DNA of 64,000 nt from Limnomonas spitsbergensis (Eukaryota; Chlorophyta; Chlorophyceae; Chlamydomonadales). Below the pieces are notes generated by a model that was not told where the DNA came from, did not search any database, and worked only from the letters and a program-made list of their open reading frames with translations. Each line of letters begins with the position of its first letter. The stretch's first letter is position 1. The position numbers and the translations under genes were made by a program. Below are positions 200 to 62,850 of the stretch, piece after piece. Location: assembly GCA_037349105.1 (NCBI GenBank), contig JAYJMM010000025.1, positions 1,178,001 to 1,242,000 of the forward strand, read 5' to 3'.

Positions 200-262
200 C
201 TCTCTCTGGTGACCCGCAGGTCTTCCTCATGCTGCAGTCGTTCCGGATATTGAAATTGCCTC
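200..262 (+). repeat. Extra copy of the acceptor and start of SAT exon 1
   Basis: The stretch CTCTGGTGACCCGCAG followed by a diverged exon-like start (AG at 218-219) matches CTCTGGTGACTCGCAG plus the real exon start (AG 326-327), 108 bp downstream. The exon-like part keeps CTGCAGTCG against CTACAGTCG but does not keep the SAT protein sequence. It is one copied acceptor edge inside the intron. Confidence 0.7.
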
Positions 263-327
263 AAAGCATTAAGTGGGTGCCTCGCAGCAGATGTATTCCA
301 CTGGCGTGTCTCTCTGGTGACTCGCAG

Positions 328-3300
328 GGTTTTCTTGGGCTACAGTCGTGGCGGATCGCCAACTCGCTGTGGCTTCAGGGCAGGAAGGATGTGGTGAGCT
401 AAGGATTATGCGTCCCTGTCTGGTGCTGTGATTCGTTTAGTCAGTAATCAGTTTGAATCGTTAGGAATGTGCGGCCTGGAGCTGTGATTCTTTTAGATTG
501 AGCTGAGTTCAAATCGTAACAGATGTGCAGCCTCGTGCTATGATTCCTTTAATCGGTGCTGAGTTCAAATCGTAGGGGATGTGCAGCCTGGTGCTGTGAT
601 TCATTTATACGGTGCTGAGTTCAAATCGTAAGCGATGTGCGGCCTGGTGCTGTGATTCTCTTAGACAGGTATGAGTTCAAGTCGTGAGGAATGTTTGGCC
701 TAGTGCTTTGATTCTTTTAGTCAGTGCTGAGTTTAATCCTAAGAATGCGTAGCCTTGTGCTGTGAGTCTTTTAGACAGTGCTGTGTTCAAACCGTAAGGG
801 ATGTGTGGCCCTGGTGCTGTGATTCTTTTAGTTGCAGCTGAGTTCAACCTGTAAGGGATGTGTGGCCTGGTGCTGTGATTTTTTAGTCAGAGCTGAGTTC
901 AAACCAAAAGGGTTGGGCAGCTTGGTGCTGTGATTCTTTTAGGTGCAGCTGAGTTCAACCTGTAAGGGATGTGTGGCCTGGTGCTGTGATTCTTGTAGTT
1001 GCAGCTGAGTGCAACCTGTAAGGGATGTGCGGCCTGGTGCTGTGATTCTTTTAGTCAGAGCTGAGTTCAAACCAAAAGGGGTGGGCAGCCTGGTGCTGTG
1101 ATTATTTTAGGCGCAGCTGAGTTCAACCTGTAAGGGATGTGTGGCCTGGTGCTGTGATTATTTTAGGTGCAGCTGAGTTCAACCTGTAAGGGATGTGTGG
1201 CCCTGGTGCTGTGATTCTTTTAGTTGGTACCTCCACGCCCCATGAGGGCGCAGTTTCTTTGTTTCTGTTTAAAACTTCTCGTCCTCTTGTGATCCAGGCA
1301 CGACTGCTTCAGTCCCGTATCTCCACCATATTCCACATGGACATCCATCCGGCCGCCACCATCGGCGCCGGCATCATGTTCGACCATGCGTCAGGAGTGG
1401 TGATCGGAGAGACCGCGGTGGTCGGGGACGGCTGCTCCTTCCTGCACAATGTCACGCTGGGGGGGACAGGTGAGGATGCTGAAATCTGTTGTGAGAGATG
1501 GTTGCTCTTTCCTGCACAATGCCACGCAGTGGGGGACAGGTGAGTATCATATACTGAAATTTGTGGTGGGAGACGGCTGTGCTCCTTCCTGCACAATGTC
1601 ACGCTGGGGGGGACAGGTGAGGATGCTGAAATCTGTTGTGAGAGATGGTTGCTCTTTCCTGCACAATGCCACGCAGTGGGGGACAGGTGAGTATCATATA
1701 CTGAAATTTGTGGTGGGAGACGGCTGTGCTCCTTCCTGCACAATGACGAGCTGGGGGGGACAGGTGGGGATATAGAAACCCACAGTGACCAGGTTCTATA
1801 TTCAACTTTGGCGCAACTTGGGCTGGGGGGGACAGGTGAGCACGCTGAAATCTGCGACTACGTCCCATATCCATCTGATGTACTCAGGCCTGGACTAATG
1901 TAAAGAACCGGTAAACAACCCCAAACCCCAAACCCTAAACCCTAAATTAGGCTATGTATGTAACCAGACCTGGGCGCACATAAGGAATGCTATTTTGGAT
2001 CCCTTATACCAATTATGGAGTTTCCAACCTGTTGGGGTCAGTCTTTGTCTCACAGTGACTGAGACGCAAATCCGCTAGATCAGGGCTAATGGCCGAGGAT
2101 GGCCTTTTGCAGTAAGCCCTGCAGTTTGGGTTGTTCGCTGTAGGGTTGTAAACCTTGAATCCCCAACCATAAGCCCCTAAAATCTGGTGCAGTAAGCTCT
2201 GCAGTTTGGGTCGTTTGATGCAGACCAAGTTATTTTCCCAGCGGCCGCCAAAGGCTTGATTAGGACCATAACTGGACCGATCTATGACTGATGGCCAAAG
2301 CAGCAAGGCTGGCTACAAATGTTGTCTCCGGCCAGCGGCCGGGGTTTAGCTGACATGTAGCTGAGTCGGGAAAAAGAAGCACTGGACGCAGACCTGTCAA
2401 GCTTTGGTCTTTTCAGCCTTTTGGGTGTCTGCTGCCCAATGGCCTGCCAAAGGTGGTCTGGTTAACACCACTATACAGTGGTGTGGACTGTCTGTACCTT
2501 TCTCCTGGATCTTGCCCTGTTCAGACAGGCTTCATATGACCAACACACCGATCTGTTGTTTCTTATCCATACGGAGCTTGGTATGGATATTTTACTTACT
2601 TACTGTCATATGGTCCCGAGGCGAAAGTGTATGATAAGTGTAGCGAAATCCTATTTGTTTCCGCCGTCTCGCGTCTTGCTGTGTTCCACGCGTCCTTGGC
2701 TTTGATTCAAATTGCCTTAAGATGAAGGGAAAGAAAACAGGCCTCCTCGCTAGCTTTGGGGGGCTGCACCCCCGACCCTCCTTTTTTATTGGGGGCTTGG
2801 GGGGTCTCAAGAAGAAGTTATTTTTTGTACCACCGTATGGATCTTAAATGGTTATGGATACACATATGAACATGACTGGACAACACCCCAAACAGATTAT
2901 CAATATGTTAGCCCTTCCGGATCCCATCCCCGCCAGGAAAGGCTTCCAGTGACTGCCACGCCAACAGGATGATCAAAACAAAATCCTTTATTACTGGATG
3001 TCTCCCATCTGTCTGTAACTGTCACCCTACCTGCTGGATCCCTTTTCTTCTGAAAGCAAGGCTTCTGGTTATCTTCATCCCTACTGTTTCCACAGATTTC
3101 CCTTGGAAGCCCGGCCCCCAAGGGAAATATTTGGGAGGCCCTCCCACCTGTCAAACAATTGCACCCTTTCACCCTCCGACTATCAGGCAAACGCCTTTGG
3201 TGACCGGCATCCCTAATATTTTCAGACTTATCATGCCAGGTCCCTTTTAGATCTGTTAGAAACCGCTCCTACTCCCCTTCATCCCTCCCTCCATTAGGCA

Positions 3301-4814
3301 AGGCTTCTGTTGACCGGCACCCATACTGAATAGACAAAATGCATCCGAGGATCCTTCTATCTATCTATCAAAAAGTGTCCTCTTTCACCCTCCGACTATC
3401 GGGCAAGGCCTCTGGTGACCGGCACCCCTAACTTCTACAGAGTTTTCATGCCAGGTCCTTTTTGCATCTATCAAAAAATTGTCCCTACTCCCCTTCATCC
3501 CTCCCTCCATCAGGCAAGGCTTCTGTTCACCAACACCCCTATTTTATTGATTTACAGATTTCATCCCAGGATCCCTCCCACCAGTAAAAAATCAATACAC
3601 TGAATACCTACCTCCTTTAGGTAAGGCTTCTGGTGACCGGCACCCCTGTTTTACTAACAGATTTCATCCCTGGATCCCTCCCACCACTCCCACCTGTCAA
3701 ATAATGAACCTGGAACCCCTGTTCCTCCATCAGGCAAGGCCTCTGGTGACCGGCACCCAAAGCTCGGCAAGGACATCTCAGTCGGCGCGGGTGTGTCTAT
3801 CCTTGGAAACGTCCGCATAGGGAACGGGGCCAAGGTGAGGTTTGGATGCGAATTAAGCCACGAATGGGACAGGGTCAAGATGAGGTTCAGATGGGAATTC
3901 ATCCACGAATGGGACAGGGTCGAGATGAGGTTTAGATGGGAATTCATCCACGAATGGGACAGGGTCAAGATGAGGTTTGGATGGGAATTCATCAGAAATC
4001 GGGTTGGCCTTAAGAGTGCCAGACCGTTTATATTTGGTATCCATGCTTTAGAGGTCGGTCAGACTGCGTTACGTTTGAGGTTGCGTCACGAAAAAGTGCG
4101 AACGCGACGCTGGTCACACTTGCCCAAACGCAAACGCAACGCAGTGTGACCGACCTCTTAGCTACCGTAATACCGCACTCACCTGCTTGCCTGTCAATGA
4201 CATTATTACACCTCTGGGCCCTGCTCAAAAAGGCTCGGCTGGGTGGGCGCCCCGTTGCTGGGTGGGCGCCCCGTTGGGAGGAAAGATAAGGAACTTCAGG
4301 GGAAATGGAAAGAAGGAGAAGAACACAAAGGAGAAGAAATATCCCCCCCCCAAAAGGGAAAAGGCAGTTCGAAGTATCCCCGCCTCTCTCAAGCCTTTAA
4401 CAAGAAAGCAAGAGGGAAACAAAACCTGCTTGCCTTCAGGTTGGTGCCTTCAGGTTGGTGTCGGGTCAGTGGTGCTCATCCCCCAGACTATAGGTATATT
4501 GTCCCAGTTGCCGGGTCAGTGGTGCGCATTGACCAGACCACCGGTATGTTGCCCATGGACCAGACTAACGGTATTTTGTATCCATGCTTGTAGGTAACAT
4601 AACACCCACCTGCTTGCTCCTGTGGTGCCTCCAGGTTGGTGCCGGCTCAGTGGTGCTCATCGATGTGCCTGACCATGCAACCGTGGTAGGCATTCCAGCT
4701 CGGATCGTTATGCCGAAAGTGGAGTCGCAGCCCGTACTGGCGACAGAGGCGAAGTTGCACGCACTCCCCCAGGCCTGGCCGCTGGGAACAGCAGACGTGG
4801 CGAAGGAGCAATAG
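328..4814 (+). CDS. SAT: Serine O-acetyltransferase, 3' half of gene (four exons, 5' end outside window)
   Basis: Serine acetyltransferase transfers acetyl from acetyl-CoA to L-serine, giving O-acetylserine for cysteine synthesis. Exons by splice signal and phase are 328-393, 1298-1469, 3734-3834 and 4635-4814 (TAG 4812-4814). Exon 1 encodes [15 protein letters not shown], the helical region before the catalytic domain. Exon 2 encodes LQSRIS, then DIHPAA and [12 protein letters not shown] of the left-handed beta-helix, ending LGGTG. Exon 3 carries [12 protein letters not shown] and [13 protein letters not shown]. Exon 4 carries VGAGSVVL and the GIPARIV end. All junctions are in phase (0, 1, 0). 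The catalytic His-Asp area lies in exon 2. The final 25 or so residues after the hexapeptide domain are variable, as is usual for the family's C-terminal tail. Every exon edge seen here has extra tandem copies in the adjoining intron, or past the stop codon for exon 4. Upstream exons should lie left of the window. Family assignment is very secure; exact exon ends are inferred from consensus. Confidence 0.93.
422..1226 (+). repeat. 56-58 bp tandem repeat filling the SAT intron
   Basis: About fourteen diverged copies of a unit containing GGTGCTGTGATTCTTTTAG, a variable stretch, GCTGAGTTCAA and GGGATGTGTGGCCTG. Copies differ by base changes and small indels. The array occupies most of the 904-bp intron between SAT exons 1 and 2. 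The GGATGTG part of the unit resembles the end of exon 1 (AAGGATGTGGTGAG), so this array may also derive from the exon 1 donor; that link is weak. Confidence 0.85.
1426..1850 (+). repeat. Tandem copies of the SAT exon 2 donor edge
   Basis: The exon 2 end (CTTCCTGCACAATGTCACG, then GGGGACAG and GTGAG) recurs down the intron. The real GT is at 1470. Equivalent GTs occur at 1540, 1617, 1687, 1764 and 1836. Spacing alternates between about 70 and 77 bp, so the array has a two-unit higher-order structure of about 147 bp. All five extra copies keep GACAG|GTG and therefore look like usable donors. Confidence 0.88.
1880..2930. other. SAT intron interior, no gene
   Basis: No coding exon seen. It holds a short CCCTAAA-type stretch at about 1919-1950 (AAACCCTAAACCCTAAA) and a copy of a dispersed element at 2230-2375, described separately. 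Confidence 0.6.
2230..2375 (+). mobile_element. Dispersed element family A, copy 1 (non-autonomous type unknown)
   Basis: Shares an ordered set of motifs with 20100-20250 and 22145-22310, and in reverse with about 40125-40290: GCGGCCGCCAAAGGC or similar, ATTAGGACCA, GGCCAAAGCAG, CCGGCCAGCGGCCGG, then TAGCTGACATGTAGCTGAG near its end. There is no open reading frame. Length is about 140 bp. No terminal inverted repeat or poly-A was recognised, so SINE or MITE is undecided. Confidence 0.55.
2925..3760 (+). repeat. Tandem copies of the SAT exon 3 acceptor edge
   Basis: The real acceptor and exon start (CCATCAG|GCAAGGCCTCTGG, AG 3732-3733) is preceded by seven diverged copies. Junctions fall at about 2936, 3056, 3186, 3297, 3403, 3523 and 3620, spaced 97-130 bp. 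Copies retain CAAGGCTTCTGGTGACCGG, which is exon sequence, and also upstream intron motifs such as CTCCCTCCAT. The copy near 3403 has GG in place of AG. After about 25 nt each copy leaves the exon sequence, so only the edge is repeated. Confidence 0.92.
3820..3995 (+). repeat. 45-bp tandem copies of the SAT exon 3 donor edge, donors inactivated
   Basis: The exon end and donor are GGGGCCAAG|GTGAGGTTTGG with GT at 3835. Three further 45-bp copies read AGGGTCAAG|ATGAGGTTTGG or similar, with AT at 3880, 3925 and 3970. Every extra copy has lost the G of the donor in the same way. The simplest reading is that one mutated copy was then amplified, or that selection removed competing donors. Confidence 0.88.
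4180..4345 (-). mobile_element. 3' end fragment of the non-LTR retroelement family
   Basis: Contains CACCTCTGGGCCCTGCTC, AAAAAGGCTCGG and a GTGGGCGCCCCG block, followed by a purine-rich GGAAAG/GAAGGAG run and a C-homopolymer. The same order occurs beside retroelement coding remnants at 14.7 and 54.1 kb, where it corresponds to the element's 3' untranslated end on the minus strand. The GTGGGCGCCCCGTTG block is itself duplicated here. Confidence 0.6.
4425..4660 (+). repeat. Copies of the SAT exon 4 acceptor edge
   Basis: The real junction is CCTCCAG|GTTGGTGCCGGC with AG at 4633-4634. Earlier copies are CCTTCAG|GTTGGTGCC (AG 4438-4439) and CCTTCAG|GTTGGTGTCGG (AG 4452-4453). The second continues GGGTCAGTGGTGCTCATC, the same exon sequence. 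Another diverged copy starts at about 4507 (TTGCCGGGTCAGTGG). Confidence 0.8.
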
Positions 4815-4854
4815 CAATTACGACCGAAAATGTAGTCACAAGTATAAAATGGAT

Positions 4855-8756: not shown

Positions 8757-11700
8757 ATGGCTGGTGCTCCCGAGCTTGATGCTGTGTGGGATGATTACTT
8801 GTGGATCGTGGTATGCGGTGGCCTAGCATGTTTCTACATGGCGTGGGGCATCGGTGCCAACGACGTGGCCAACTCCTTCGCGACGTCGGTTGGCTCCAGG
8901 ACGCTCAAGCTGTGGCAGGCCGTCATTGTGAGTTTGCCAGCCGACTTCAGCAAAATATGCCGAAATACTGGTTGGGGCTTTCTGAAATTGTAGGAACATG
9001 TGTGCCATCGATTTCATTGCACTCGACGACCCGATATGGAGGACGGTCGCGACCGGGTCCGAATGAAATGTTTTACTATGCTGGAAACATGACGTGCCGC
9101 TGCATATATACTCATGTGCACCGAAGTATCAGCATCGTTTCATAAGATTTACTCACCTGCCCAGTGCTATACCTGATCGCCCCGCGTTCAACGACCACCC
9201 TTGCAGATTGCGGGCACCTTCGAATTTGTTGGCGCTATCGCTCTGGGCGGAGAAACCACCAAGACCGTGGCCAGCGACATCGCCAATGTGGAATTATTCC
9301 AGGTGGGAGCTAGGCAACAAATAAAGAAGGCAGACAACAGCACATGCCATCATTCGGACGGCTTCGAGATAAAGCCCTGGATGGTGCAATTTTTGCTGAC
9401 CTCCCCGACAATTAGTGTTGTTTTATGTGTCTCACCCTCTATCTATCCTCCCGGCACTATGCGTAGCACATTGGTACACTGCACTTCCACCTTCCTTCCT
9501 TTTGCAGGCTTTCATCTAGATTAATTTTGCCGCTGCCTCTCGTTGCAGGATGTTCCTGAGATCTACATGTACGGCATGCTTTGTTCCTTGGCTGTGGCCG
9601 GCACCTGGCTGCTAGTTGCCACCTACTGGTGCTACCCTGTCTCCACCACACACTCCATCAGTGAGTTGAATACACAGTGCTCAGAACGTGACCAGGCCTT
9701 CCTGGCCATAACCAGCCAAACTTTGCCCTGGACTTGACGTCCCCTCTAGCTGCATGGGCGTGTACACTATTTAAGGTGTGTATACAGTGATGTATCAGGA
9801 ACAATTGGTGCTGAACTGCCAATTGTGTGTCTAAAGATGCCAGAAGAAGGGTGTGTGGCATGCATAGTAGACTTTCAGCAGAGATACTGCCTGCGTCCAT
9901 TAAAGTTTACGTATTTCCCCCCTCTCTAGTGTCCACTTACACTCCGCCCTGTCCTCTTGCCCTCGCAGTTGGATCTGTCATGGGCTTTGGCCTCGCTTAC
10001 GGAGGCTCAAATGGAGTTTTGTGGCATGAGGAGAAGGGTGGCTTCCCCTTCACCAGGGTAAGCTGCTGCTACTAGAATGAAGGAAAGCTACGCCCCGTGA
10101 GGGGCGTGAGAGCTAAGGAAACAGCTAGCGCAGCCTGGGCCAACGCCACGTCCGCGCCGTTACCGTCGCTACTCCCAGAATGAAACAAAGCTTTTGACTT
10201 CTTGACAGATCTTTTCCTTATAAAGCTGCTTCTAACTCCCAGAGGATTTTGCATAACCCGCTAATTCAATTGGGCTGCGCTAGGTTGAAATCGACCCGGT
10301 TTTTGTGTCATGTATCACCTTCACTTACATTCCTCCTCTGCTACCTCTGCTGTCTGCAGGGATTCATTCTTGTCGTGCTGTCCTTGTTCACCTTAACTTA
10401 CTTCCCTCTTCTGCTACCTCTACTAATTTTCTGCTGCCTCTGCTGCCCTCAGGGTTTCCTCCCCGTTGTCCTATCCTGGTTCTTCTCGCCCATCATCGGT
10501 AGCATCCTGTCAGCCATCTTCTTCTTCACCATCCGCATCTGCATCCTGCGCCGCCAGAACTCCACCAACCTGGCCATCTACTGCCTGCCGCTGCTCATCT
10601 TCATCACCATCTTCATCAACCTCATGTTCGTCATCATCAAGGGACACTTCCAGGAACTCAAGGTAGGTGACGCCATAAAGCCTGTTAGCACAATATAGCG
10701 CAAAATGGTACAGGTTAAGTCTGATTGTACTACTTCACGGTACATGTCCTGCCGGATTGTGCTACCTGGTATACCTGGCCATGCCTGAAAGCACTGTCTG
10801 CAGACAATGCCTTGCATTATTGATCCAAATCGAGCGCCTGAGCGTTGACTTGATGCCGGGCCTGTGACCTGATCATGAACGGATTTCAGAACTACTAGAA
10901 CACCTCATTTTTACTAAATGGACTAAATGAATGTATGCCCCCCTCTGTCCTCTTGCTTAACAGGATAAGTACCCGTGCGTTACGGTCAATGGCTTCCATG
11001 ACCTTCCCTTCAGCGATTGCACCAATCTGAACAACGCAGCTGCATGGATTGCTGCGGCTGTTGCCGGTGGCTTGGCTGTTGTAGGAGGCGCCGTCGGAAT
11101 CCCCCTCCTCAAGAGGAAGGTGGCTCGCGACCTGGAAGAGTGAGTGATGGCTCTGCGCTCTTTCCTCCTGTAATTGAAAATAGTGATGAGCGGCTTATCC
11201 CTGAAACTGAAGTTTGAAGAGTGACCGATGGCTGTGTGCTCTTCCCTCCTGTGGCCTATGTTGTCCATGATTGGAAAGAGTGACAAGTGGCTTATCCCTG
11301 AAGTGTAAACAGTAAAGGCACGCAACCTGGAAGAGTGAGTGGTGGCTCTCTGCTGACATCTCCAATCGTCTCAATTGATAGACCATGTGGCCTTCGACAT
11401 ACGGAGATGGTGACTGTGTGACTGATCCCTCTTGTCCACTACTGATCTAGGGTGTTGAACTGAGAACCTGATTCCTCTCTGGCGTGTCTGAACTCCCTCA
11501 TGACTATGCCCTACTTCCTTTGCATGCGCAGGGCTGAGGCTACTGAGGCCAATGCATCCAACGCTGAGCACAAGGTGCAAGTGGCCCTGGACGGCGATGT
11601 GGAGGGTGCTGGCGGTGAGAAGCATGGCCTTGACGTCACCCCTGCAACCACGGTCCGTCACGAGGACAAGATCAAGATCCACGAGATCCCTGAGGAGTGC

Positions 11701-13565
11701 CCTGCCTACATGATCCCCTACCACTACCCCTGGCACATTGCCACCCGGATTGCGCATCAGACCGTCAAGGGCATTTTCTACGAGGTGCACGAGGCCGGGA
11801 TGGCTGGAGACGAGGCAGTTCAGGACATGCATGCCCGGGCCGAGGTCTTCACAGTGCCCACGGAGACGGTCTTCAAGTACCTGCAGGTGAAAGGCCACTA
11901 CGGCAAATTTACCTGTATTGACCATGTGCCGGAAAAGGTTTTGTTCAGGGGATAAAGATTCTTTTTTTGTTAGTCGCATGCATGAAGGAAGTAAGGAAGC
12001 GCCTCTCTTGATGCCTTTTCAGATTGCTGTCCGAGAAGTCCGATTTGAAACATATGAAAAGCTGACACGTCTACACCCATCAAAGATTTACCAATTGATC
12101 GTCTGTCATTGGATCGGAGAATTGACGGTGATATGTCCTTAACCTTGATCCTGACTGCCTAGGGCTGACAATATGCCTCGACCCTGACCCTCACCTTCTA
12201 CCCCTGCCTCTGTCCCCTCATCTCCAGGTCTTCTCTGCTTGTATGGTGGCCTTTGCACATGGTGCCAACGATGTGGCCAACAGCATTGGCCCTTTCTCAG
12301 CCATCTACAGCACGTACAAGACTCATGCTGTGCCCTCCAGCAAGTCTGAAACCCCCAAGTGGATCTTCGTCCTGGGAGGCGTCGGAATCGTGCTCGGCCT
12401 TGCCACGTACGGCTACAACATCATCATGCAGTTGGGAGTCAAGATGCTTCACTTGACACCCAGCCGCGGCTTCTGCGCTGAGCTGGCTGCTGGCCTCACC
12501 ATCTCCCTGGCCTCTTTCTACGGCATCCCCGTCTCCACCACTCAGATCATTGTCGGCGCGGAGATTGGAGTTGGCCTCACGGAGAATATCATGACCGGCC
12601 TCAACTTCCCCATTCTCATGCGCACCTTCATGGGCTGGATCTGGACCATCCTGCTGGCCCTCTGCTTCTGTGCTGCGCTATTTTCCATGGGTGGCTACGC
12701 ACCCTCCATCGTCATGGCCAACGAGATCCGCTACTACCGCAGCGCTGCGTTTGAGAGGTCTGATGCTGCTTACAGCCAGATGCAGGCCACCAACAACATG
12801 TTCAAGACTGACGCTGCCTGGATGAATGGCACCACTGTCAACCCCAACGGTACTACGCTGAACGCGCTGATCACCAGCCAGGCCAGCACTTACAAGAAAG
12901 CCATGTTTAAGTACGACAAGAAGAAGAAGACGTACAGCTACAACCTGTACATGACCAAGGAGCAGGTGGGCTTATTAGCCTCTTTCATCATTCCCTTTGA
13001 TATCCAAGTAATACACATGTTGGAATTATCGCATTCGTCTTGCACGCATAAATTAAGTATGCTCTCAGCTAACAACCTGTACATGACCAACGAGCAGGTG
13101 GGGGGACATGTCCTTTATGACTGCTTGACCTAGCTGACGCACAGGCTGCCAGATTGTGCATAAATGCTGAGCTGCTGCAGTTACTGATGCAGCGGCTGAC
13201 GCTTTCACAATGGTTTTGAAACTACAAGCGTTCTCCTGTGATCAGACACTCATAAAAGTCTCACAATCGCTCTATTTCTGAACTGCTTTTATTTCTGCGA
13301 GATGTTATGTTCCTTAACCAAAATGAATGGATTTCCAACCCAGCCTTTCATATGGTCCTGTCCACTGTCTCCCCCTTTCTCTGCCGTGGTGGAGTACTAG
13401 TACTACCTGACCCCTGCAGTCTGTACCTCTGCCTAAATTCGAATGCAGAAACTTACCTTCGCCGCTCCCCGCCCCCTTTTCCCTGCCCAGGTGGAGTACT
13501 ACTTGAGCCAGGCCCTGGACCTCCAGGCCACGACGTCCAACACGACCATCGGTGTGCTGCCATAA
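8757..13565 (+). CDS. PHO4/PiT-family phosphate transporter, nine exons, 673 aa
   Basis: Inorganic phosphate symporter (cation-coupled) of the PHO4/PiT family, an integral membrane protein. Exons: 8757-8927, 9207-9302, 9549-9660, 9969-10057, 10453-10662, 10964-11139, 11532-11886, 12228-12965 and 13491-13565 (TAA 13563-13565). All junction phases agree and the model reads through to 673 aa, within the family range. The two inverted-repeat signatures are present: GIGANDVANSFATSVGS in exon 1 (residues about 31-47) and HGANDVANSIGPFSA in exon 8. Both halves also carry PVSTTHSI (exon 3) and PVSTTQIIVGA (exon 8). Exon 5 is a pair of hydrophobic helices with RRQNSTN between. Exon 7 is the large hydrophilic central loop. 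The start is the first ATG before the first membrane helix. Edges of exons 5, 6, 8 and 9 have extra copies in the introns. It could import phosphate at the plasma membrane or an organelle; location is not visible. Confidence 0.95.
10074..10175 (+). mobile_element. Dispersed element family B in transporter intron 4
   Basis: Reads GGAAAGCTACGCCCCGTG, AGGGGCGTGAGAGCTAAGG, GCGCAGCCTGGGCCAACGCC and GTCCGCGCCGTTACCGT. The same block occurs at 20774-20860 and 21090-21170, and in reverse at about 22755-22845, 22880-22965 and 22995-23105. A central CGCCCC...GGGGCG inverted repeat could form a small hairpin. It is about 100 bp with no open frame. Confidence 0.65.
10330..10480 (+). repeat. Copied acceptor edge of transporter exon 5
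   Basis: CTCTGCTGTCTGCAG|GGATTCATTCTTG with AG at 10358-10359 copies the real CTCTGCTGCCCTCAG|GGTTTCCTCCCCG with AG at 10451-10452, 93 bp away. The copy continues TCGTGCTGTCCTTGTTC against TTGTCCTATCCTGGTTC of the exon. A further polypyrimidine block CTGCTACCTCTACTAA lies between them. Confidence 0.85.
11120..11350 (+). repeat. Copied donor edges of transporter exon 6
   Basis: The exon end and donor CGACCTGGAAGA|GTGAGTGATGG (GT 11140) recurs as TTTGAAGAGTGACCGATGG (about 11211), TTGGAAAGAGTGACAAGTGG (about 11270) and CAACCTGGAAGAGTGAGTGG (about 11327). The last copy is nearly identical to the real donor. The intervening intron words GGCTTATCCCTGAA also repeat. Confidence 0.85.
13069..13110 (+). 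repeat. Copied donor edge of transporter exon 8
   Basis: AACAACCTGTACATGACCAA then CGAGCAG|GTGGG (GT 13099) copies the exon 8 end TACAACCTGTACATGACCAA then GGAGCAG|GTGGG (GT 12966) 133 bp downstream. The donor is intact, so splicing from it would insert an extra peptide in some transcripts. Confidence 0.88.
13365..13500 (+). repeat. Copied acceptor edge of transporter exon 9
   Basis: TCTGCCGTG|GTGGAGTACTAG at 13380-13400 copies the real CCTGCCCAG|GTGGAGTACTAC (AG 13489-13490). The copy has lost AG and gained an in-frame stop. Confidence 0.78.
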
Positions 13566-13589
13566 ACAACCAAGCGCTGAATTGCTCCC

Positions 13590-21542: not shown

Positions 21543-21660
21543 TTATTCCCCCTCATACCTGAAGTCAGTGCCTGACTTGACCATCAGCACGTTATGCAGC
21601 TGGCTGGATGAACTCTGTCTCATAATGGTGGCCGCTCCCCCCCATGAATTATTCCATGAA
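21543..21660 (-). repeat. Copied donor edge of metallophosphatase exon 4
   Basis: CTCATACCTGAAGTCAGTGC with ACTTGACCATCAGCACGTTA repeats the exon 4 end 126 bp further into the intron (in gene orientation). The copied donor GT (minus strand) at 21557-21558 is intact, like the real one at 21683-21684. The copy extends about 75 nt into exon sequence. Confidence 0.9.
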
Positions 21661-21897
21661 TCATCCCCCCCCCTCCCCTCATACCTGAAGTCAGTGCCTG
21701 ACTTGACTATCAGCACGTTATGTGGCTGGATGAACTCGGTCTCATATTGGTGGTCATGGCCTCCCATCACGATGTCGAACTCGGGGACCTGAGAGGCAGG
21801 CCAGCTTGCGGTCATTGGGCACCCGCATATGCGTAATGGCGACCACAACCTCAGCACCATCAGCCTGAGGACAGAACAAGCAGGGGGGTAGAAGGGT

Positions 21898-21904
21898 GTA
21901 CATG

Positions 21905-21942
<38 letters not shown>

Positions 21943-22550
21943 TGTGAGCTAGGGCAGAACGTCAACACCATCCTGAGAAATTAAATTCAAAAATAAATAT
22001 ATCCATCCTGAGAGGCCAGCTGGGGGTCATTGGGTAGCCGCATATGTGTGATCGCCACCAGGACCTCAGCACCATTAGCCCGAGGACGGAACAAGCGAGG
22101 GGGCGCAAGCAGTTTTTTCTTCCGACTACAAGACCAACTTCTACAGACAGCCTTGCCGCCGCCATAGGCTGATTAGGACCAAACCTGGGCCAGCCGGCAG
22201 CCGGCGGCCCAAGCAGCTTGGCTCGCCACCCCCACGGCCTTTGGCGGGGAGCTGGGTTGTAGCTGAAATGTAGCCGAGACATGGAAGAAAAAGGCGCTGG
22301 GCACAAGGGTATAAATATAACATCAATAAAACCTATTGTATTTCTTTTTTACTTACTATATATATATATATATATATATATTTGGGGTGTGAGCTAGGGC
22401 AGAATGTCAGCACCATCGGCCTGAGACGATGTGACACGATTTTAAATAAATCAATAAATATATATCAATCCTGAGAGGCCAGCTTGCGGTCATTGGGCAC
22501 CCGCAACCGCGAGATCGCCACTAGAACCGCAGCACCATAAGCATGAGGAG
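21898..22550 (-). repeat. Copied acceptor edges of metallophosphatase exon 4 plus (TA)n tracts
   Basis: Two further copies of the exon 4 start lie upstream in gene orientation. At 22012-22085 the copy includes AGGCCAGCTGGGGGTCATTG and CGCATATGTGTGATCGCCAC. At 22472-22545 it includes AGGCCAGCTTGCGGTCATTG. Their coding sense gives VAITHMRLPNDPQLASQ and VAISRLRVPNDRKLASQ. These show that the original reading was LASQ without the 4-bp insertion now in the real exon. TA microsatellites stand at 21908-21937 and 22358-22381. A family A element lies at 22145-22310. Confidence 0.85.
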
Positions 22551-22724
22551 AGCACAAGGGTACAGTCAATGTGACCTTTTAGGGGGGGGGGGGCTAGGTC
22601 AGAAATCCAGTTATTTTGCAAGAAAAAATCACGGGAAGTAGAAGGAGCATTCAACAGGAATCGCCCGACAAGACATCGCCCTGCTGCGCAATGCTGGATG
22701 CATAGTCCGTCCACAAAGTCAGTG

Positions 22725-23245
22725 GCGGGTTGCTGACTTTCAGCTTCTTGGCCAATGGTGATGGTAACGGCGCGGATGCGTCATAGGCCCATGCCGCGCT
22801 GATTCCTTAAACCTCACGCCCCTGCCGGGCGTAGTTTTCGTCCTTCTCCCTGGCTCACCTTCAGCTTCTTGGCAAAAGGTAATGGTAACGGCGTGGACGC
22901 GTCATAGGCCCATGCCGCGCTGTTTCCTCAACCCTCACTCCCCTGCCGGGCGTAGTTTTCGTCCTTCTCTCCGGCTCACTTTCAGCTTCTTGGCCAATGG
23001 TTATGGTGACGGCGTGGACGAGTCATAGGCCCATGCCGCGCTGCTCCCTTAAACCACACGCCCCTACACCCTAAACCCTTAACCCTGCGGGACGTAGTTT
23101 TCTTTCTTCTTTCTTGCTCACCTTCAGCTTCTTGGCCAAGCGCCTGCCCCCCCCCACAAAAGCCAGTGGCGGGTTGCTCACCTTCAGCGCAATGTTGGAT
23201 GAGGTCTGTCCTTCACAAAAGCCAGTGGCAGGTGACTCACCTTCA
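22725..23245 (-). repeat. Tandem copies of metallophosphatase exon 3 donor edge mixed with family B elements
   Basis: The real exon end (plus-strand CTCACCTTCAGCTTCTTGGC from 23236) is repeated at about 23117, 22978, 22856 and 22736. Plus-strand readings are GCTCACCTTCAGCTTCTTGG, GCTCACTTTCAGCTTCTTGG, GCTCACCTTCAGCTTCTTGG and CTGACTTTCAGCTTCTTGG. An extra copy with CTCACCTTCAGCGCAATG is at 23176. In the 22736 copy the minus-strand donor reads GTCAG rather than GTGAG. The three outer copies alternate with reverse family B blocks at a period of about 120 bp. Confidence 0.88.
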
Positions 23246-23439
23246 GCTTCTTGGCCAGGCGCCTCCCCTCCTCCACAAAGTCGATGTACTCCAGCTCGGC
23301 TGGGTTGACTGCGCCCAGGGTCTCCAGCCACTCCTCCTCCACTAGTCATGCAAAGCCAACCTGCCAAATAAAGGAAAGCAGCAGGGCTCAGCATTATGTA
23401 CCTAGTATTGGAAATCTGATATACTTATATACCGGTAGC

Positions 23440-39335: not shown

Positions 39336-39795
39336 AACAACGGTGGCCTTTCCCACTCGATGGTGCCTAAGGTGGGGATTCCCGCGCGTGGGGGGATACG
39401 TCGTGGGTCAGCAACGTGTGGAAATCCCCACGACGGGTCCACCGCGGTGGCGTGTCCCACTCGATGGCGCCATGCGTGGGGATTCCCGTTTGGGGGGACA
39501 CTTCTCGGGTCAGCAACGTGTGTGAATCCCCACGACGGGTCCACCCCAGTGGCTTTTCCCACTCGATGGTACCCTGCGTGGGAATTCCCGTGTGGGTATG
39601 CACGGCGTGGGTCAGCAACGTGTGGGATTCCCCACGACGGGTCCACCGCAGTGGCTTTTCCCACTCGATGGTAACCTGCGTGGGAATTCCCGTGTGGGAG
39701 TATAGTAGTGGGTTATCCCACTGGGTGGTGACAATCCCCAATGGGTAACCCCACGGCGGGTCTGCCCATTGACTGCACCCCACGCACAGTTTCCC
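39336..39795 (+). repeat. ~100-bp tandem repeat with inverted GGGGATTCCC / CGTGGG motifs
   Basis: Four units, each with TTTCCCACTCGATGGT, GGGGATTCCCG or GGGAATTCCCG, GTGGGTCAGCAACGTGTG and CCCCACGACGGGTCCACC. GTGGGGATTCCC and its complement make hairpins. The style (CGTGGG words in both orientations) resembles the 150-bp satellite at 27 kb. Confidence 0.9.
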
Positions 39796-47900: not shown

Positions 47901-50900
47901 TGGCTCAAGCCATGGCAGCAGATATGATTTGAACTGCATTTTATGAGACTCCCCTTGAGCCTCATATGCTCGCACGGTCACCGCACTGTTGCCGCCATCC
48001 CCCTTGCCGACCTCCCCTGTCTCTACCGCTTCAAACCCTCACCATGTACCGCCTGCGTTCTACCCCCTCAAAAGATGCACTGCCGGCCTCCCATAGTGCA
48101 ACTCCTGTTCTATTTTTGAAATTTAATCATTGTCTGACACCCTCTGTTTTGCTTGCTGAGTGCAGATGCAACAAGGGTGGCGGCGGCACCGGTGGCGGCC
48201 GCAGGTGGGCTCTTGGGTGTGGCGGGAGGGGCAGGTGGGTGGGAGGTGGGTCTGAACTGCTGTTGTTGGCATTGCGCTGCCATCGCATGTGAGACATGGC
48301 ACTCTGGCCATCTTGCCTTGCCTAGCCGATCCTCAATTGTGCACACCTGGATCCCTCCGAAGGCCCCGCGCGCGCTTCGAACCCTCACCATGTACCGCTT
48401 GCGCTCTACCCCCTCAAAAGATGCACTGCCGGCCTCCCATAGTGCAACTCCTGTTCCATTTTTGAAATTAATTAATTGTCTGATATCCTATGTTTTGCTT
48501 GCTGAGTACAGCTGCGACAATGGTGGTGGCGGCACCGGTGGCGGCCGCAGGTGGGCTTTTGGGTGGTGGGATGCACCATGAGGCCCTGCATGGACCCTGG
48601 GATGCAACCTGAGGCCCTGCATGGACATGGTGGCGGGAATGGAGACAGCATCTCGCTCCCTCTCACTCTCTTTTTTGCCGCGGCACTGCCACTCACCCTC
48701 CCCTGTTGCTGCCCTACCCCTGACACTTGCCCTCCCTTGTTGCAGCCCCATTGCCCCCAGCCCGCCCTTGTTGCTGCCCCACACCCACTCACCCGCCCTT
48801 GTCGCTGCCCCGCACCCACTCGCCCGCCCTTGTCGCTGTCCCGCACCCAATCACCCGCCCTTGTCGCTGCCCCACGCCCTCTCACTCGCCCTTGTCGCTG
48901 CCATATTGCCACTGGCTCTCCTTAGAAATGATGCATAGGCCCCTGCCTTGCCTCTTTCTGCCACATCTGTGTGCCCTCTTGTCGCATAGTATGTCAGCCC
49001 CCTGTGTTGCGGATGAGCAGGGTCACTCATCCCCGGAATAAGTCGCAATTTACCTCACCTACGCCTCCCCTAGAGCCCGAAGACCAGAGTGCGGCAAGCG
49101 TGGTGCGTCTGAAGGATCTCTTCTCCTTGAAAGTCTGGCGAGCGCTGCCGAAGGCGAAAGTCTACTGACGGTTCGGGACAGGTGGGTAGTCAGGCTGGAG
49201 AGTGGTGCCACTGTCATGGGCTGACATCTGTGTGTGGCTCAGCTGGCACGAGTGCAGTGCCCCCTGCAAAAGTTGTCCCTTTGGTGCTTTGTTGCCCTAA
49301 ATCTGACCATTAGTACGTCCAGGGCTAATTAGGGGTATATACTTAACCCTACACCCTAATTTCAAACCTTGCACTATAAACCCTTTTGCAGGTGTCTTGG
49401 TGGTGCTGTGTTACTCAGTTACCCAGGCCATGCTGTTGACAAAGTGGAGGGGGAACCTGTCTGTGCTCTTCCGGCAGTTGATCTGCCTTGGCATCATCGT
49501 CTTCGTGAATGCGGTGTCGCTGCTGGTGTCGACTGAGGAAGGTGAGTTGATTAGTTGATTGGGTGGTTGGGTAACCAACTCTCGAAGGTGAGTTGGTTTC
49601 TGGACTAAAACATTGTCAACCCGATGTCTTGGCCGAAGCTATGCACTCAGCAGCTGACCTTGGTCCCCCAACCTGCTGATGAAGGTCTTGAGTCTGGATG
49701 CTGGTTTTGGAGGATGTTCATTGGTCAGCGGGCGCCGATTGGGTGGTCACGTTACTGGTAAGTTCTACCATGCAGCTCTTCAATGCTCAGACCGTGCTAG
49801 TATTTCGGGTTTGACTGGGCCATTGCTTGTGAGTTGTGACGCACAGCTTGACCAAGCCCTCGCTCTGTCATCATATTGACAGGGTCCTCTGTCTTGCGCA
49901 CCCTTTGGGGTGTCACAGATCGCCCCCAACCTTACCCCCTCGTTCCCTCCCCCCCTCGTCCCCCCCTCGTTCCCTCCCCCGACTCGTTCTCTTACACAAA
50001 CTTGGTGTCCCCTTCCTAGGCTCCCCTCAAGGCCCGAAGAGAACCCCTGGCTGTTGGGGGGGCGCATCCCCATTGTTGTGGCGGAGGGTGCCTGGTGGGC
50101 GGTGGTGTTGCTGGTGGGTGTCGTCCCCGGAGGCGTTCTGGCGGTGGCCCTCTTCTTCCTCGGGCAGCGGGGTCTGACGAACATAAGGTATGACGGGCGT
50201 GGCGGCCACCGGGGCGGGTGCACCATTGGGGGCCGTTGCCCGTGAAGAGGTTGGTGGGAAGTTGACCAGAAGGTGTTGGGTGGGGCACAACATTGCTGAG
50301 TGGATAACAAGACAATATCACAAATGTGGAAGTAGGGATCTATGTTCCTTGAGCTAGACGCTGCCTCTCCTTTCCTTACGCACCCCTTAGCCTCATCCCC
50401 CCTCACTGCCCCCTTGCCTCTTCCTCCCTCAACCACCCCCTGCCCTTACCCCCCTCACCGCCCTCCTGCCTCTATTTCCCTTACCCGCCCCCCCCTGTTT
50501 CTGCCTCCCTTACTCGACCCCCCGCCTCTTCCTCACTCTCCCACCCCTACGTTTTTCCCCCCATCCCGCCCCCTATCTCTACCAACCCTTAACTCAACTC
50601 CCCCCTGTCTCAAACAACCCTCACTTCCTCCCTTTACCTATCACACCTGCCCCTCCTGCCTAGACCTCCTGCACTTGCCCCCCTCCCTGCCTGTAGCTCC
50701 CTCATGTGCCCGCCTGCCTGTACCTCCCTCACTCGCCCCTCACGTCTCTACCGGCCTCCTCCGCCCCCCTGCCTTTTCCTCCTTTACCCCTCCCCCCTTC
50801 CTATGCACCCTTTTTCACCCTCACCCCTACCTCCACCTCCCTCACCCGCCCCCCCTGTTTCTGCCCCCCCCCCCCCCCCCTGCCTGTCCCTCCCTCAACC

Positions 50901-54107: not shown

Positions 54108-55394
54108 AATAACGTTACACCTCTGGGCCCGCTCAAAGCTCGGCCGCGTGGGCGCCCAACTGTTCAGAAGGGAGTAATGAAGGAACTCAAAGAACGAGAG
54201 GGGGAAAGGAACAAAAGGAGAGGCCGGAAAGGTAACGAAGACCAAATCCAACACCTGAGTTCCACTAGAGACTAACCCTCAACAAAGCCTATAAAAAAAA
54301 GGTAAGTCCAGAAAATAAAGTGTATCCCACCCCTGCTTGGCCGCAAGGGCGCCCCACTGATCAGAAGGGAGAAGAGAATAAACTAAAAAGGGGGCAAACA
54401 ACAACAACCCCCCCCCCCAAAACGGACCAAAAGAGAAGGTCGGAAAGGCCAAAGACACCAGCCTCAGAAACCCTGGAGACTAACCCTCAATAATGCCCAC
54501 AGCACAGTCCACAAAAGCAAGTGCGTCCCACCCATGCTCAGCCTTGTACAACTGGTGAAAGTTAGTGGCAGCGCCCAGAGGACCTGCCCACCCCTGCTCC
54601 CGTAACTGCTCCCTGACACTAGGGCAGTGGAAGCACACATGCAGCTCATCCTCTATCTGCTCGCTATCCCCCCGTGCCCAACACCGCTGGCAGCAGCGTG
54701 CCTGTCGCCGCTGACCGTTGCGCCGTCCTCTGGTATCAGCAGTGCTGATCGCGCCAAGCCGCAGTCGCAAATTGATGCGCACACAAGCACACTCCTTCTG
54801 ACTAATGCGGCTCTTGGCTTGCGCCAGCACGGCACCCGCCGTGGACTGGAACCAGGCGCGGTAGGTCGCCGCAGATCTGTGCTCGGTGGTAGGGTCCCTG
54901 GGGTCCCCACCGCCGCTTGCGTCCAACCGTGCTTGCTCGTAGGCTGCGTCAACGAGTGCCGACACCTCTGTGACGGGTAGGCGCTGTAGGGCAGCTGCTG
55001 CTTCGCGCAAGGTGGGGGTGGCTGCCCCCCGCTCCAGCTCCTCTAATGCACCCAGCAGATCAGAGCACCATGTGCGGCCGCCAGTGCCCTGGCTGATTGC
55101 AAGCTGCATATCTGCCGTCATGGCTTGAGCCATGAGAGGGCTGTATTGCTGTGCCTCCGGTGCCACCGCTGCATTGTAGAAGCGGAGGAAATGGGCCCAC
55201 CAGTCTCGCTGTAGTGGCTGGAGCTGCAGCTCTCTTAGGACTCCCCAACTGGCGGCTGATGCAGGTAGCCCCGCAGCCTGGCGTAGGTGTTGAAGCAAGC
55301 TGGACTGCATTTTGCTGGAGAGACATTGCCGCGGCCGAAACAAGTATGGCCAACATGTGCTCCATTGTATTATGTGAGGACCAAGCCGGGCCAA
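54108..55394 (-). mobile_element. 5'-truncated non-LTR retroelement with intact C-terminal ORF, 304 codons
   Basis: The minus-strand frame 55394-54480 encodes LRQAAGLPASAASWGVLRE, ECACVRINLRLRLGA, then CCQRCWARGDSEQIEDELH followed by VCFHC, a Cys-Cys-His-Cys finger in the position usual for the end of LINE-type ORF2. About 370 bp of 3' untranslated sequence follow, with a duplicated CGGCCGCGTGGGCGCCCA type block and GAGGTGTAACGTTATTGAC at the very end. No reverse transcriptase or endonuclease motif lies in this piece. It is the least damaged of the copies in the window (others 4.2, 14.7, 16.2 and 47.7 kb). Assignment as LINE rests on finger, truncation pattern and shared 3' ends; another mobile class cannot be excluded. 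Confidence 0.68.
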
Positions 55395-58095: not shown

Positions 58096-58100
58096 TCCGG

Positions 58101-60200: not shown

Positions 60201-60202
60201 AC

Positions 60203-62384
60203 ATGGAGGACAGCAATAAGAAGCGTGCCTTCCCTTATTACTCCGAGGTGATGATTGAAGAGGGGATGTGGCGACATCTGGTTCCATGCAATCAGATTGG
60301 CTGTAGCTGTCCATGCAGCTTGTGCAGGCCATGTGACTCAGGCATCCATCTCGCACGTCCCATGCAGCGATGCAAATCATGCTAGCATGCAGCTGCGCCA
60401 TCTCATGCAGACCATGCAACATTTTCAGCAATACAGTTTCCCAGTATGTAGGTATGTATCCTATTCAACCAGACGTCCCAATAGCCCATGCACCGCATGC
60501 GGAGCCCATGCGACACATCCAACCATGCAGCCATGCAATCAAAACAACCCATGCAACCATGTAACCAGTGCTGTGCCAATTACGGACCTTATGGTGGCTA
60601 AATAACGTTACTGAGTGTTAGTCACCTTAATTTCAGGGCAAATTCAGCTATTTTTACCAGTAAGGGACCGTAATTACCAACACCAATTCTGAATTACGGT
60701 ACAATGCCACAGCACTGCATGGAATGCCACGCTATGTCCTAAGCCCCACGTGGCCCATGCAACCAAGTGTCAAGTCCTGCAACCCTCCCCAATCTACCGC
60801 CTGTCATGCTGATGATCAACGCTCTTAATTCCAGCCGGGTGTAGAGTGGTGCATACCTGTCGAGCCCGGCTGAACGCTCGGCCGCGTTGGGCTGGTAGGG
60901 GATGAGCAAGCTAAATACCAGCTATCATTCACGGCCAGGATCATAGTGCAGCCCTGCCCCCCTCCCATGTGAGGGCACCCGGCGAACCAGGCAGGGGGAG
61001 AGAGAGGATCGTTTGGCGGTTTTGATCCCTCAACCTTCGTTCCAGCAAGGCGTTGCTTGCTGAGATCTCTTCGCCATGTCGCTGCTCTGGAACCGATCCT
61101 GCCGTGCACCATGCCACCATGCAGGTGGCGTCCTTTGATTTGGGGAAGCGCAGCGCTTTGCGGCCCGGCTCTTCTCATCCTGGCAGGTGAGGGGCTGTAC
61201 CGAATAGTCCCTCCCCTCTTAACCAAAGGGAAGAGCATACTTGATATGCAAAATGAATGGATGAGGCCATGCTGTCCTTGGGCCATGAGAGCTGAAGGAA
61301 TAGCTCTTTGCCTCCCAGCTCCTCCTATCCTGTCAGTTAAGCGGCTGTGCAGCAACACCTTTTAGACCAAAGGGAAGAGCATGCTTGTGGAGCTAAAATA
61401 ATGGGCAAGGCCACGCTGTCATTGTTCCGTGAGAGCTGAAGGAGTAGCTCTCATTGTGACCGCCTTGCATCTACCTGGAGCATTTACTGGTGCCAGGACT
61501 GATGAACAGACCAAACTTGAATCCACCCTGGAGCATTGGACTGGCGCCAGGACTGATGAACAGGCCAAACTTGAATCCACCCTGGAGCATTGGACTGGTG
61601 CCAGGGCTGATGAACAGACTAAACTTGAATCTACCCTGGAGCATTAGACTGGTGCCAGGACTGATGAACAGACCAAACTTGAATCCACCCTGGAGCATTG
61701 GACTGGTGCCAGGGCTGATGAACAGACCAAACATGAATCTACCCTGGAGCATTAGACTGGTGCCAGGACTGATGAACAGACCAAACTTGAATCCAACCTG
61801 GAGCATTAGACTGGTGCCAGGACTGATGAACAGACTAAACTGAACAGCCTCTCTGACACCACAGACGAATGTAAGTTGTGCAGTTTTTTGTTCTCGATGG
61901 ACGGACCATGCATGACCTGTGTGGCCTTACCTTTGCAATAGTGTAGTATCCTTCTTGCGGATCAAAATGCACCACATGTGTTGGCCTTATCTTTCAGTAC
62001 CCATGACGGTGGCGATGTCCCATGCTCCTGCCCCAATGGGCCGCTTCCTTTATTCACACACGCGTTTGCGTTCCTTTAATCGTTTATTATTTGATCGCAC
62101 CTTTGCGTTTATTTACTCAATATTGATTCTTTATCGCACCTACTGGCATGCGTTTATTTACTTCTTCATTTATTTGATCTTATCTTTGCAGGGAGCAGAG
62201 CGCCCCCCGTGTGTTCCAGCAGCCCAGCGACAGCCGATCTGATGACCTGTCTACAGCTGGCAGCAACAACAGCCACAGGCGCCCTGCCTGCACGGACTTT
62301 TCCCAGTGGAGTGACCACGATATACGGCAGTTCTTAGAGGCGCGGGGCGGGGACTACGAAGACTGCAACAGCAGAGAGCATCTG
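60203..62384 (+). CDS. Gene with a SAP-like C-terminal motif, partial exon set
   Basis: Possible start ATG 60203 (MEDSNKKRAFPYYSE, donor GAG|GTGATG at 60248). A short exon 61821-61870 encodes TDEQTKLNSLSDTTDE. Exon 62192-62384, after TTTGCAG, encodes VFQQPSDSRSDDLSTAG then WSDHDIRQFLEARGGDY and CNSREHL, donor CTG|GTGAGT. The pattern 'hxxFLExRGGDYxxCxxxxxLV' resembles SAP-like helix-extended-loop-helix motifs; the match is by eye. The three exons are not all in mutually compatible phase, so at least one exon is missing (one may start at 62000 after ATCTTTCAG). The gene probably continues right of 62384. Confidence 0.45.
60250..60600 (+). repeat. CCATGCA-rich degenerate repeat
   Basis: Many CATGCA and CCATGCAGC words with variable spacing, similar in style to the repeats at 38.1 kb. 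It follows the possible donor of the first exon. Confidence 0.55.
61480..61822 (+). repeat. 54-bp tandem array copying an exon start
   Basis: Six 54-bp units precede the exon at 61821, each with TGGTGCCAG|GACTGATGAACAG or the GGGCTGATGAACAG variant, then CCAAACTTGAATC and CACCCTGGAGCATT. GATGAACAG falls at 61501, 61555, 61609, 61663, 61717, 61771 and, in the exon itself, 61825. Because 54 is a multiple of three, units also read as an 18-residue repeat (TDEQTKLESTLEHWTGA), stopped in some units by CATTAG. Confidence 0.9.
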
Positions 62385-62419
62385 GTGAGTCATCTTCAGA
62401 TCCGCTAGATCCACCAGGT

Positions 62420-62850
62420 CTTCTAGATCTGCCGGTTTTCAGAGGCGCAGGGCGGTGACTATGATGACTGCAACAGCATTGAGCTTTTGGCTAGTGATCA
62501 TTATACCCGCTAGATCCACCATATCTGCCAGATCCGCTAGATCTGCCAGCTGTTTGTTGCAATCCAATTGACGGTGACCTGTAACGATTGCAACAGCAGA
62601 GGGCATCTAGTACGTTACGCCATCTAGATCCGCTAGATCCGCCATATGCTAGATCCGCCAATCCTTTGTGGCAGGGGTTAGGGCTTACGATGATTATGGC
62701 TGAGAGCATCTGGTGAGCGATCATCTACATCCGCTAGATCCACCATATCTGCTAGATCCGCTAGATTCGCAGGTTGTTAGTGGCAGAGGGCGGTCACTTT
62801 CATGGAAGCTGCAGCAGATAGCTGGTATCTGGTGAGCTGTTAAGATCCGG
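62420..62850 (+). repeat. Tandem copies of the SAP-like exon donor edge
   Basis: The exon end GACTGCAACAGCAGAGAGCA plus TCTG|GTGAGT (GT 62385) recurs four times at about 115-bp spacing. The ends read GCTTTTG|GCTAGT (62488), GCATCTA|GTACGT (62611), GCATCTG|GTGAGC (62713) and GTATCTG|GTGAGC (62832). The first has lost GT; the last two keep full donors. The intron part TCCGCTAGATCCACCATATC repeats with them. Confidence 0.88.

Follow-up and report, generated by a model that had tools for sequence, protein, structure and literature searches.

Copies of exon edges in the introns of the Arctic snow alga Limnomonas spitsbergensis, a probable outcome of position-blind local duplication

Internal gene duplication, including that of parts of introns and exons, was reportedly found by Gao and Lynch in 2009 to be ubiquitous. 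Internal tandem repeats (ITRs) have been described at exon-intron boundaries of human genes lying in segmental duplications (PMC2812944), and tandem duplication has been put forward as a route to new introns in several cases, including the potato RdRp gene (PMC4974935). In the core-Reinhardtinia green algae, introns are unusually long and satellite DNA is common, with the cause of the intron length left open in the part of that account available to us (PMC8226300). Here we describe direct copies of exon edges, splice site included, that lie within the adjoining introns in a 64,000-nt stretch of DNA (the window) from the Arctic snow alga Limnomonas spitsbergensis, whose mean intron measures 788 bp (PMC11228838), and in introns sampled from its assembled genome (260,226,709 bases, 124 contigs). 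A reading of the window made from the letters alone (the sequence-only reading) had claimed such copies for nearly every gene, in arrays beginning exactly at exon borders. We found that the copies are real but were overstated by that reading, and that splice junctions are not special targets of duplication.

The sample comprised 181 introns (362 junctions) of five gene families, kinesin, CCT/cpn60, PHO4, tRNA synthetase and HSP70, which were picked for conservation and blind to repeats, except for PHO4, picked since a gene in the window is a member. For kinesin and CCT/cpn60, introns were taken between exon matches that adjoin each other in the Pfam model; of 75 such pairs, 73 were used and two were left out as lacking a good splice pair. 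To obtain PHO4 introns, paralogues were aligned, with splicing allowed, to 12 query proteins; introns backed by fewer than 4 of the 12 were left out, except in the hand-checked window gene, as were four more (three of the recent duplicate L016 and one overlapping call in L017). These three families make up a first set of 123 introns (246 junctions), in which two kinesin introns with identical edges (L034 and L035) were kept, neither of which holds a copy. For the tRNA synthetases, 10 pairs were hand-picked among 30 matches, and a 6.4-kb intron and an overlapping pair were excluded. HSP70 (48 introns) was added later as a replicate, with copy thresholds unchanged and the permitted hidden Markov model (HMM) overlap widened from 6 to 16 positions; 4 of its 55 pairs were excluded as lacking a good splice pair, and 3 more for low scores. 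By definition, a copy had to match the exon that adjoins the intron holding it, and copies were counted where one ungapped same-strand match scored at least 30 at +2/-3 and covered at least 12 exon and at least 2 intron bases at the junction, its partner falling within the same intron as the junction. Self-comparison by blastn misses repeats with offsets below about 50 nt, and the counts were redone by an ungapped diagonal scan; totals were nearly stable across methods (35 and 36 by blastn, 34 by diagonal scan, each of 246 junctions), and flank tests made on the blastn matches serve as illustration only.

A direct repeat crossing the junction, the hallmark of ITRs, was present at 39 of 362 junctions (19 of 181 donors and 20 of 181 acceptors), distributed over 35 of 181 introns. 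The first set contributed 15/123 donors and 19/123 acceptors, and three rounds of shuffling returned 0/246 copies each time; by an exon-side criterion, 35 of its 246 edges had direct copies, against 0 with the intron inverted. In HSP70, where introns are short and repeat-poor, copies were found at 3/96 junctions and in none of three shuffles, with 2 direct and 0 inverted of 96 by the exon-side criterion. The tRNA synthetases, a set without shuffle control, gave 2/20. Nearest copies lay within 0.7 kb of the junction, matched it at 75–97% (one 16-nt match at 100%) and took in 13–78 exon bases. Before HSP70 was added, at least one copy was present in 24 of 67 loci, mostly gene parts, and in 7 of the 8 loci with at least four tested introns. 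Only four introns held copies at both ends, compared with 2.1 expected under independence. The existence of exon-edge copies at introns is thereby confirmed, both in this sample and at 8 of 11 hand-picked window junctions described below; their occurrence in nearly every gene is not, given the fraction of introns affected and the low count in HSP70. The assembly was made from PacBio continuous long reads (CLR) with Illumina polishing (PMC11228838), and an artefact of such reads could be suspected, as near-perfect high-copy arrays can be miscounted. The divergence of the nearest copies, their short distance from the junction relative to a read L50 of 33 kb and the polishing (PMC11228838, as far as the accessible part reports) make this explanation extremely improbable.

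Exon-interior windows at least 60 nt from a junction were copied at a rate of 0.0029 (of 3071), so that exon edges, at 10.8%, are copied about 37 times as often. This comparison with exon-internal words, which the sequence-only reading had put forward as a check, favours its observation (0.3% versus 10.8%), and on its face would suit the accompanying proposal that splice junctions are mutational hot spots, in which R-loops, spliceosome-bound sites or AG|GT words make them preferred starts of breakage, slippage and duplication. However, exon-internal words are the wrong contrast, because selection protects exon interiors; the fitting baseline is provided by intron interiors. Windows of matching size there were copied at 0.160 (mean per intron, all sets), giving a junction-to-interior ratio of 0.68 (bootstrap 95% confidence interval 0.49–0.90, 178 introns), and before HSP70 the near-junction intron windows stood at 0.156 versus 0.138 for junctions. 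Junction copies rose with the interior repeat coverage of the intron, from 6/190 at zero coverage to 7/64 at 0–0.2, 12/56 at 0.2–0.5 and 14/46 above 0.5. By family, interior rates and junction copies were 0.27 and 17/92 for kinesin, 0.19 and 7/54 for CCT, 0.13 and 10/100 for PHO4, 0.22 and 2/20 for tRNA synthetase, and 0.06 (6.2%) and 3/96 for HSP70. Around donors, repeat coverage was 0.20 at +100, 0.14 at +20, 0.14 at the junction, 0.10 at −15 and 0.01–0.02 beyond −60; corresponding acceptor positions gave 0.21, 0.14, 0.155 (junction), 0.13 and then 0–0.03. Coverage showed no peak at the junction and was down to 0–1% at 95 nt inside the exon, which, together with the 13–78 exon bases included in the nearest copies, does not bear out arrays beginning exactly at exon borders. 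The ratio below 1 and the dose response match position-blind duplication with protected exon interiors and mostly tolerated junction crossings.

In the model that we favour, short stretches of non-coding DNA would be duplicated locally, in direct orientation and at a high rate, in units of about 10–200 nt and without regard to gene structure. Duplications internal to exons would be purged and those internal to introns tolerated; duplications straddling a junction would mostly be tolerated as well, because one intact exon edge would remain joined to the rest of its exon, being the upstream of the two copies at donors and the downstream one at acceptors, with the other copy turning into intron. 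Some straddling duplications would later expand into arrays, and their exon-derived part would stay recognisable for longer because its true partner is conserved. We put the probability that position-blind local duplication, filtered by selection on exons, explains the junction copies at about 0.78. The presence and direct orientation of the copies, their scaling with intron repeats, the lack of any excess over intron interiors and the young copies in old PHO4 introns described below all speak for it. The mutational step may be replication slippage or template switching, and splicing would presumably go on choosing the edge that adjoins the exon body.

We simulated the evolution of the 123 introns under point mutation, indels and tandem duplication, with duplication periods sampled from those observed in intron interiors and with exons nearly frozen. 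With a duplication rate varying between introns (gamma) and no junction effect, 12 runs produced 32.7 ± 5.4 copies versus 34 observed; across three rate spreads, donors numbered 14–20 and acceptors 18–20 (observed 15 and 19), and introns with any interior repeat 57–69 (observed 56). Doubling the junction rate, with minimum unit lengths, predicted 48.5 copies. A uniform-rate simulation could not reproduce intron coverage and, at the same time, the count of repeat-bearing introns, and was replaced by the gamma-varied rate; it predicted about 18, 25 or 44 copies depending on the quantity matched, values read between or just beyond grid points. The simulation is offered as a sufficiency argument, not as a fit of everything.

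Several observations weigh against position-blind duplication as the full explanation. Agreement is reached only if the rate differs from intron to intron, the uniform rate predicting only about 18 copies when matched on repeat-bearing introns. Simulated interior coverage is lower than real coverage (0.16–0.17 versus 0.195 per intron; 0.21–0.22 versus 0.35 pooled), perhaps because real arrays expand more, and simulated repeat components are denser, at 2.7–3.0 per kb versus 1.9 in real introns. By the component criterion, the 67 introns without an interior repeat hold 10 junction copies, compared with 4.5–5.7 simulated. Background two-copy repeats (68 components, median 37 nt) are mostly spaced, only 21% being contiguous, a feature missing from the simulation. 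Exon-limited copies, with an intron match of at most 12 nt and an exon match of at least 18 nt, make up 13 of the 34 observed versus 5.75 ± 2.2 simulated. Flank similarity is lacking in 9 of them, versus 2.4 ± 1.4 simulated; under four other indel and time settings the means were 5.0–7.8 and 2.2–3.8, and the gap stays. In all intron counts, junctions were placed by homology and splice-site scores rather than from RNA. The exon-limited excess, the copies in introns free of interior repeats and the shortfall of the uniform rate would also be expected if junctions were hot spots, but junctions are copied less than both intron interiors and near-junction intron windows, the copies track intron repeat content, and the doubled junction rate overshoots the observed count; we therefore regard preferred duplication at junctions as unlikely.

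The exon-limited class would also arise from a second process that copies only the exon edge and its splice site, about 20–80 nt, some 100–145 nt into the intron, whether by spaced direct duplication or by templated repair. The copy in PHO4 intron 8, with 26 near-identical exon nt between unrelated flanks, is an example of what it would leave, and single-copy junction offsets in introns L009–L090 fell within 100–145 nt in 11/20 cases versus 17/56 in the background (p = 0.06). The short and spaced character of background non-coding repeats, however, means that this pattern is not junction-specific, and one-sided decay against a conserved exon partner, helped by intron indels, explains part of the class. 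Templated end-joining repair is expected to yield inverted copies, and none was seen in the first set or HSP70. In background DNA, spaced direct matches occurred in 27/30 pieces and inverted matches in 14/30, with match counts of 1785 and 37, the direct count being inflated by arrays and the inverted matches merged. A separate process of this kind is possible but on balance doubtful, and so is spaced duplication or templated repair as its mechanism; the exon-limited excess may instead be the general look of local duplications in this genome, not specific to exons.

The PHO4 family allowed the relative age of introns and copies to be judged. Its paralogues share intron positions 95, 127, 164, 194, 322 and 537 of P0001, the Chlamydomonas eustigma protein that is the best homologue of the window transporter (62% identity), and copy state differs between paralogues at these shared positions: an acceptor copy occurs at position 127 in one of six paralogues, and copies at positions 164 and 194 differ in side or offset. 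In PHO4, the introns are thus older than the copies, old introns carrying young duplications. Shared intron positions with mostly private copies speak for continuing turnover rather than intron gain in PHO4. If the introns themselves had been born from exon duplication, as in the tandem-duplication intron gain of Rogers and Hellsten, exon-derived sequence with intact splice dinucleotides would be found inside them, as it is; yet PHO4 paralogues without copies have the same intron positions, which largely refutes the idea for this family, and such an origin ties both intron ends together, which sits uneasily with the small number of two-sided copies. We consider it highly improbable. Splice dinucleotides were counted in the nearest copies by a looser exon-side criterion, and GT was kept in 13/15 donor and AG in 16/23 acceptor cases, bearing out the expectation of the sequence-only reading that decoy splice sites would be plentiful. 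Intact dinucleotides could signal functional decoys or alternative splice sites under selection, but neutral decay would leave about as many, roughly 11/15 and 15/23 when the exon match rates (0.87 and 0.80) are squared, and most copies in PHO4 occur in a single paralogue, so that selected function is very unlikely. Splice dinucleotides are not depleted in the copies, and distant decoys therefore seem to be tolerated.

Local repeats cover 35.5% of the window, compared with 0.1% after shuffling. At seven PHO4 loci their coverage was 0.192 in introns, 0.132 outside the gene and 0.035 in exons; local repeats are not intron-specific and are largely kept out of exons. Before HSP70 was added, local repeats accounted for 36.5% of intron bases, and those connected with a junction for 16.2% (133 introns), which is of interest as the long introns of related algae lack an agreed cause in the part of the literature at hand (PMC8226300). 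Intron length was correlated with repeat coverage (Spearman 0.61, before HSP70), partly as expected from longer introns holding more repeats. Copy-bearing introns were longer (median 633 versus 346.5 nt, p = 8e-8), in agreement with the earlier suggestion that introns lengthen via duplications, some of them crossing junctions.

Junction-crossing duplication may even be a main road of intron lengthening, with a splicing filter that lets acceptor units of at least about 80 nt survive and shorter ones at donors; we advance this tentatively, at somewhat less than even odds. All 20 nearest-copy offsets at acceptors were at least 79 nt, versus 6 of 19 below 79 nt at donors (30, 35, 43, 51, 59 and 78), the cut being the observed acceptor minimum and hence post hoc. 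A 60-nt cut, also post hoc, separated 5/19 donors from 0/20 acceptors (Fisher p = 0.02), and a Mann-Whitney test on all offsets (16 donors, 20 acceptors) found no difference (p = 0.49). Interior periods were mostly 8–300 nt, many of them below 45, and junction offsets at least 30 nt, the criterion itself excluding units shorter than 14 nt. The offset floor at acceptors hints at a branch-point constraint. Under the scanning rule, where two AGs depend on a common branch point, the one reached first is usually used. A short unit duplicated at an acceptor would for this reason enter the mRNA, and a longer one would bring its own branch point, together with its own polypyrimidine tract if the filter operates as proposed. 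At a donor the true site would be the upstream one, and short units may be less harmful. Were such a filter confirmed, the genome would be a natural record of spliceosome choice among near-identical neighbouring sites.

In the window, a 1.5-kb stretch of intron-side sequence at each of 11 hand-picked junctions was searched for copies with at least 8 exon and 2 intron nt, with five shuffles each; all shuffles gave 0. On the forward strand, the donor edge of exon A (1298..1469) of a serine acetyltransferase-like (SAT) gene, which we take to be such from the motif GGTGK..GDRHPK, is repeated downstream. Its array, detected by Tandem Repeats Finder and the junction search, spans 1418..1772 with up to 43 exon nt plus GTGAGG and a period of 70/147, copies lying 70, 147, 217, 294 and 366 nt from the last exon base, 1469. 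The region 1298–1480 gave a hexapeptide (PF00132) match at E = 2e-4, below the cut-off. SAT exon B (3734..3834, from its reading frame, edges from the junction search) is preceded by acceptor-edge copies of 25–26 exon nt plus AG (3164..3734; offsets −113, −220, −331 and −436) and followed by a donor-edge array of 14 exon nt with period 45 (3827..3993; offsets 45, 90 and 135 from the last exon base, 3834). Two acceptor-edge copies with 27 and 9 exon nt lie upstream of the true exon C acceptor at 4635 (4431..4635; offsets −181 and −195). Four of the SAT edges named by the sequence-only reading were thus recovered, and its exon A acceptor was not, having no copy at the 8 + 2 threshold. Plant-type telomere words (AAACCCTAA) occur at 1930–1946 in a SAT intron and at 43843 in the LYR-like/membrane-protein region, with gene context judged by eye.

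The PHO4 phosphate transporter gene (8757..13566, forward strand) has nine exons with a 673-aa frame and all GT-AG introns: 8757–8927, 9207–9302, 9549–9660, 9969–10057, 10453–10662, 10964–11139, 11532–11886, 12228–12965 and 13491–13566. The same 16 junctions were obtained from the hand model and from a purpose-built spliced aligner with P0001, and three had copies at the 12 + 2 criterion. The exon 5 acceptor edge (30 exon and 23 intron nt) has a copy 93 nt upstream (10337..10482), the exon 6 donor edge (18 exon and 15 intron nt) one 195 nt downstream (11122..11349), and the exon 8 donor edge (26 exon and 5 intron nt, 97%) one 132 nt downstream (12940..13102), the flanks of this last copy being without detectable similarity. 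These three edges had been named beforehand; a fourth, the exon 9 acceptor, did not hold up, its best match (7 edits in 24 nt) being reached by 12/200 shuffles and not significant. An edit-distance search with a fixed 24-nt exon edge was rejected as too blunt for short or spanning copies; among the 16 junctions, only the exon 8 donor (0/200 shuffles) and the exon 6 donor (2/200) stood out in it.

On the reverse strand, three edges of a metallophosphatase gene had copies by the 8 + 2 criterion with shuffles at 0: a donor edge of 48 exon nt (last exon base 21685) has a 93% copy 126 nt into the intron (21549..21732), an acceptor edge of 67 exon nt (first exon base 21864) has copies 215, 556 and 678 nt upstream (21798..22560), and a further donor edge (last exon base 23241) has copies at 119, 261, 382 and 503 (22715..23279). 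The metallophosphatase frame, viewed by eye, shifts at about 21757–21800 within the ADGAEVVV exon region, where two frames each hold part of the conserved sequence, so that either a splice has been overlooked or the copy is broken. A SAP-like gene on the forward strand likewise had copies of its donor edge (last exon base 62384) at 105, 225 and 328 (62330..62725). Two other hand-picked sites, the LYR-like exon 1 donor (42175) and the membrane-protein donor (49541), had no copy at the same threshold within 1.5 kb. A Pfam scan of five window open reading frames left three without a family and two with weak sub-threshold names, the SAP-like gene giving only weak Ish1/CUE matches below the cut-off; hence the names SAT, LYR-like, SAP-like and metallophosphatase are based on recognised motifs or on the sequence-only reading.

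Other repeats were noted in the window. A near-perfect palindrome at 44885–45140 (125-nt arms, 98% complementary, 6-nt loop) lies, by eye, in or beside the membrane-protein coding sequence. A 192-nt inverted pair (47735–47926 and 55107–55298), its members 7.2 kb apart and 97% complementary, resembles fragments of a dispersed element. Two GTGGGT-rich satellites 12 kb apart and of different period (26992–27842, period 150 nt; 39343–39698, period 102 nt) share similar words by eye. An exon-like module (GTGGCGGCGGCACCGGTGGCGGCCGCAG) and near variants, also found by eye, occur at 42679, 48165 and 48512, three over 6 kb of the membrane-protein region, a spacing too wide for local junction copies.

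The accessible part of the L. spitsbergensis genome paper (PMC11228838) makes no mention of junction-crossing repeats, and a limited literature search found no algal or genome-wide description of them. As far as that search goes, it suggests as new the scale of the phenomenon in one alga, its connection with intron length, the measured lack of preference for junctions and the lead offered by copy spacing. By extrapolation, if the sampled rate held genome-wide, thousands of introns would have at least two similar splice sites with known distances between them, forming a natural test set for splice choice. For annotation, exon edges found inside introns here are not necessarily alternative exons or new introns. 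Relative to the core-Reinhardtinia account, the likeness lies in long introns and common satellite DNA, junction-crossing repeats not being described in the part available (PMC8226300). As in intron gain by tandem duplication, splice signals are duplicated along with an exon edge and the intron borrows exon bases (PMC4974935, in part); in the alga, by contrast, pre-existing introns are lengthened and no new intron is shown. The closest likeness in form is to the human ITRs, direct tandem repeats that cross exon-intron boundaries, add splice sites and vary in copy state among paralogues, described, in the part at hand, as 27 intron modifications with transcript support in recent primate paralogues (PMC2812944). 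The algal copies, identified in genomic DNA, differ in affecting 35 of 181 introns of conserved genes and in being mostly diverged.

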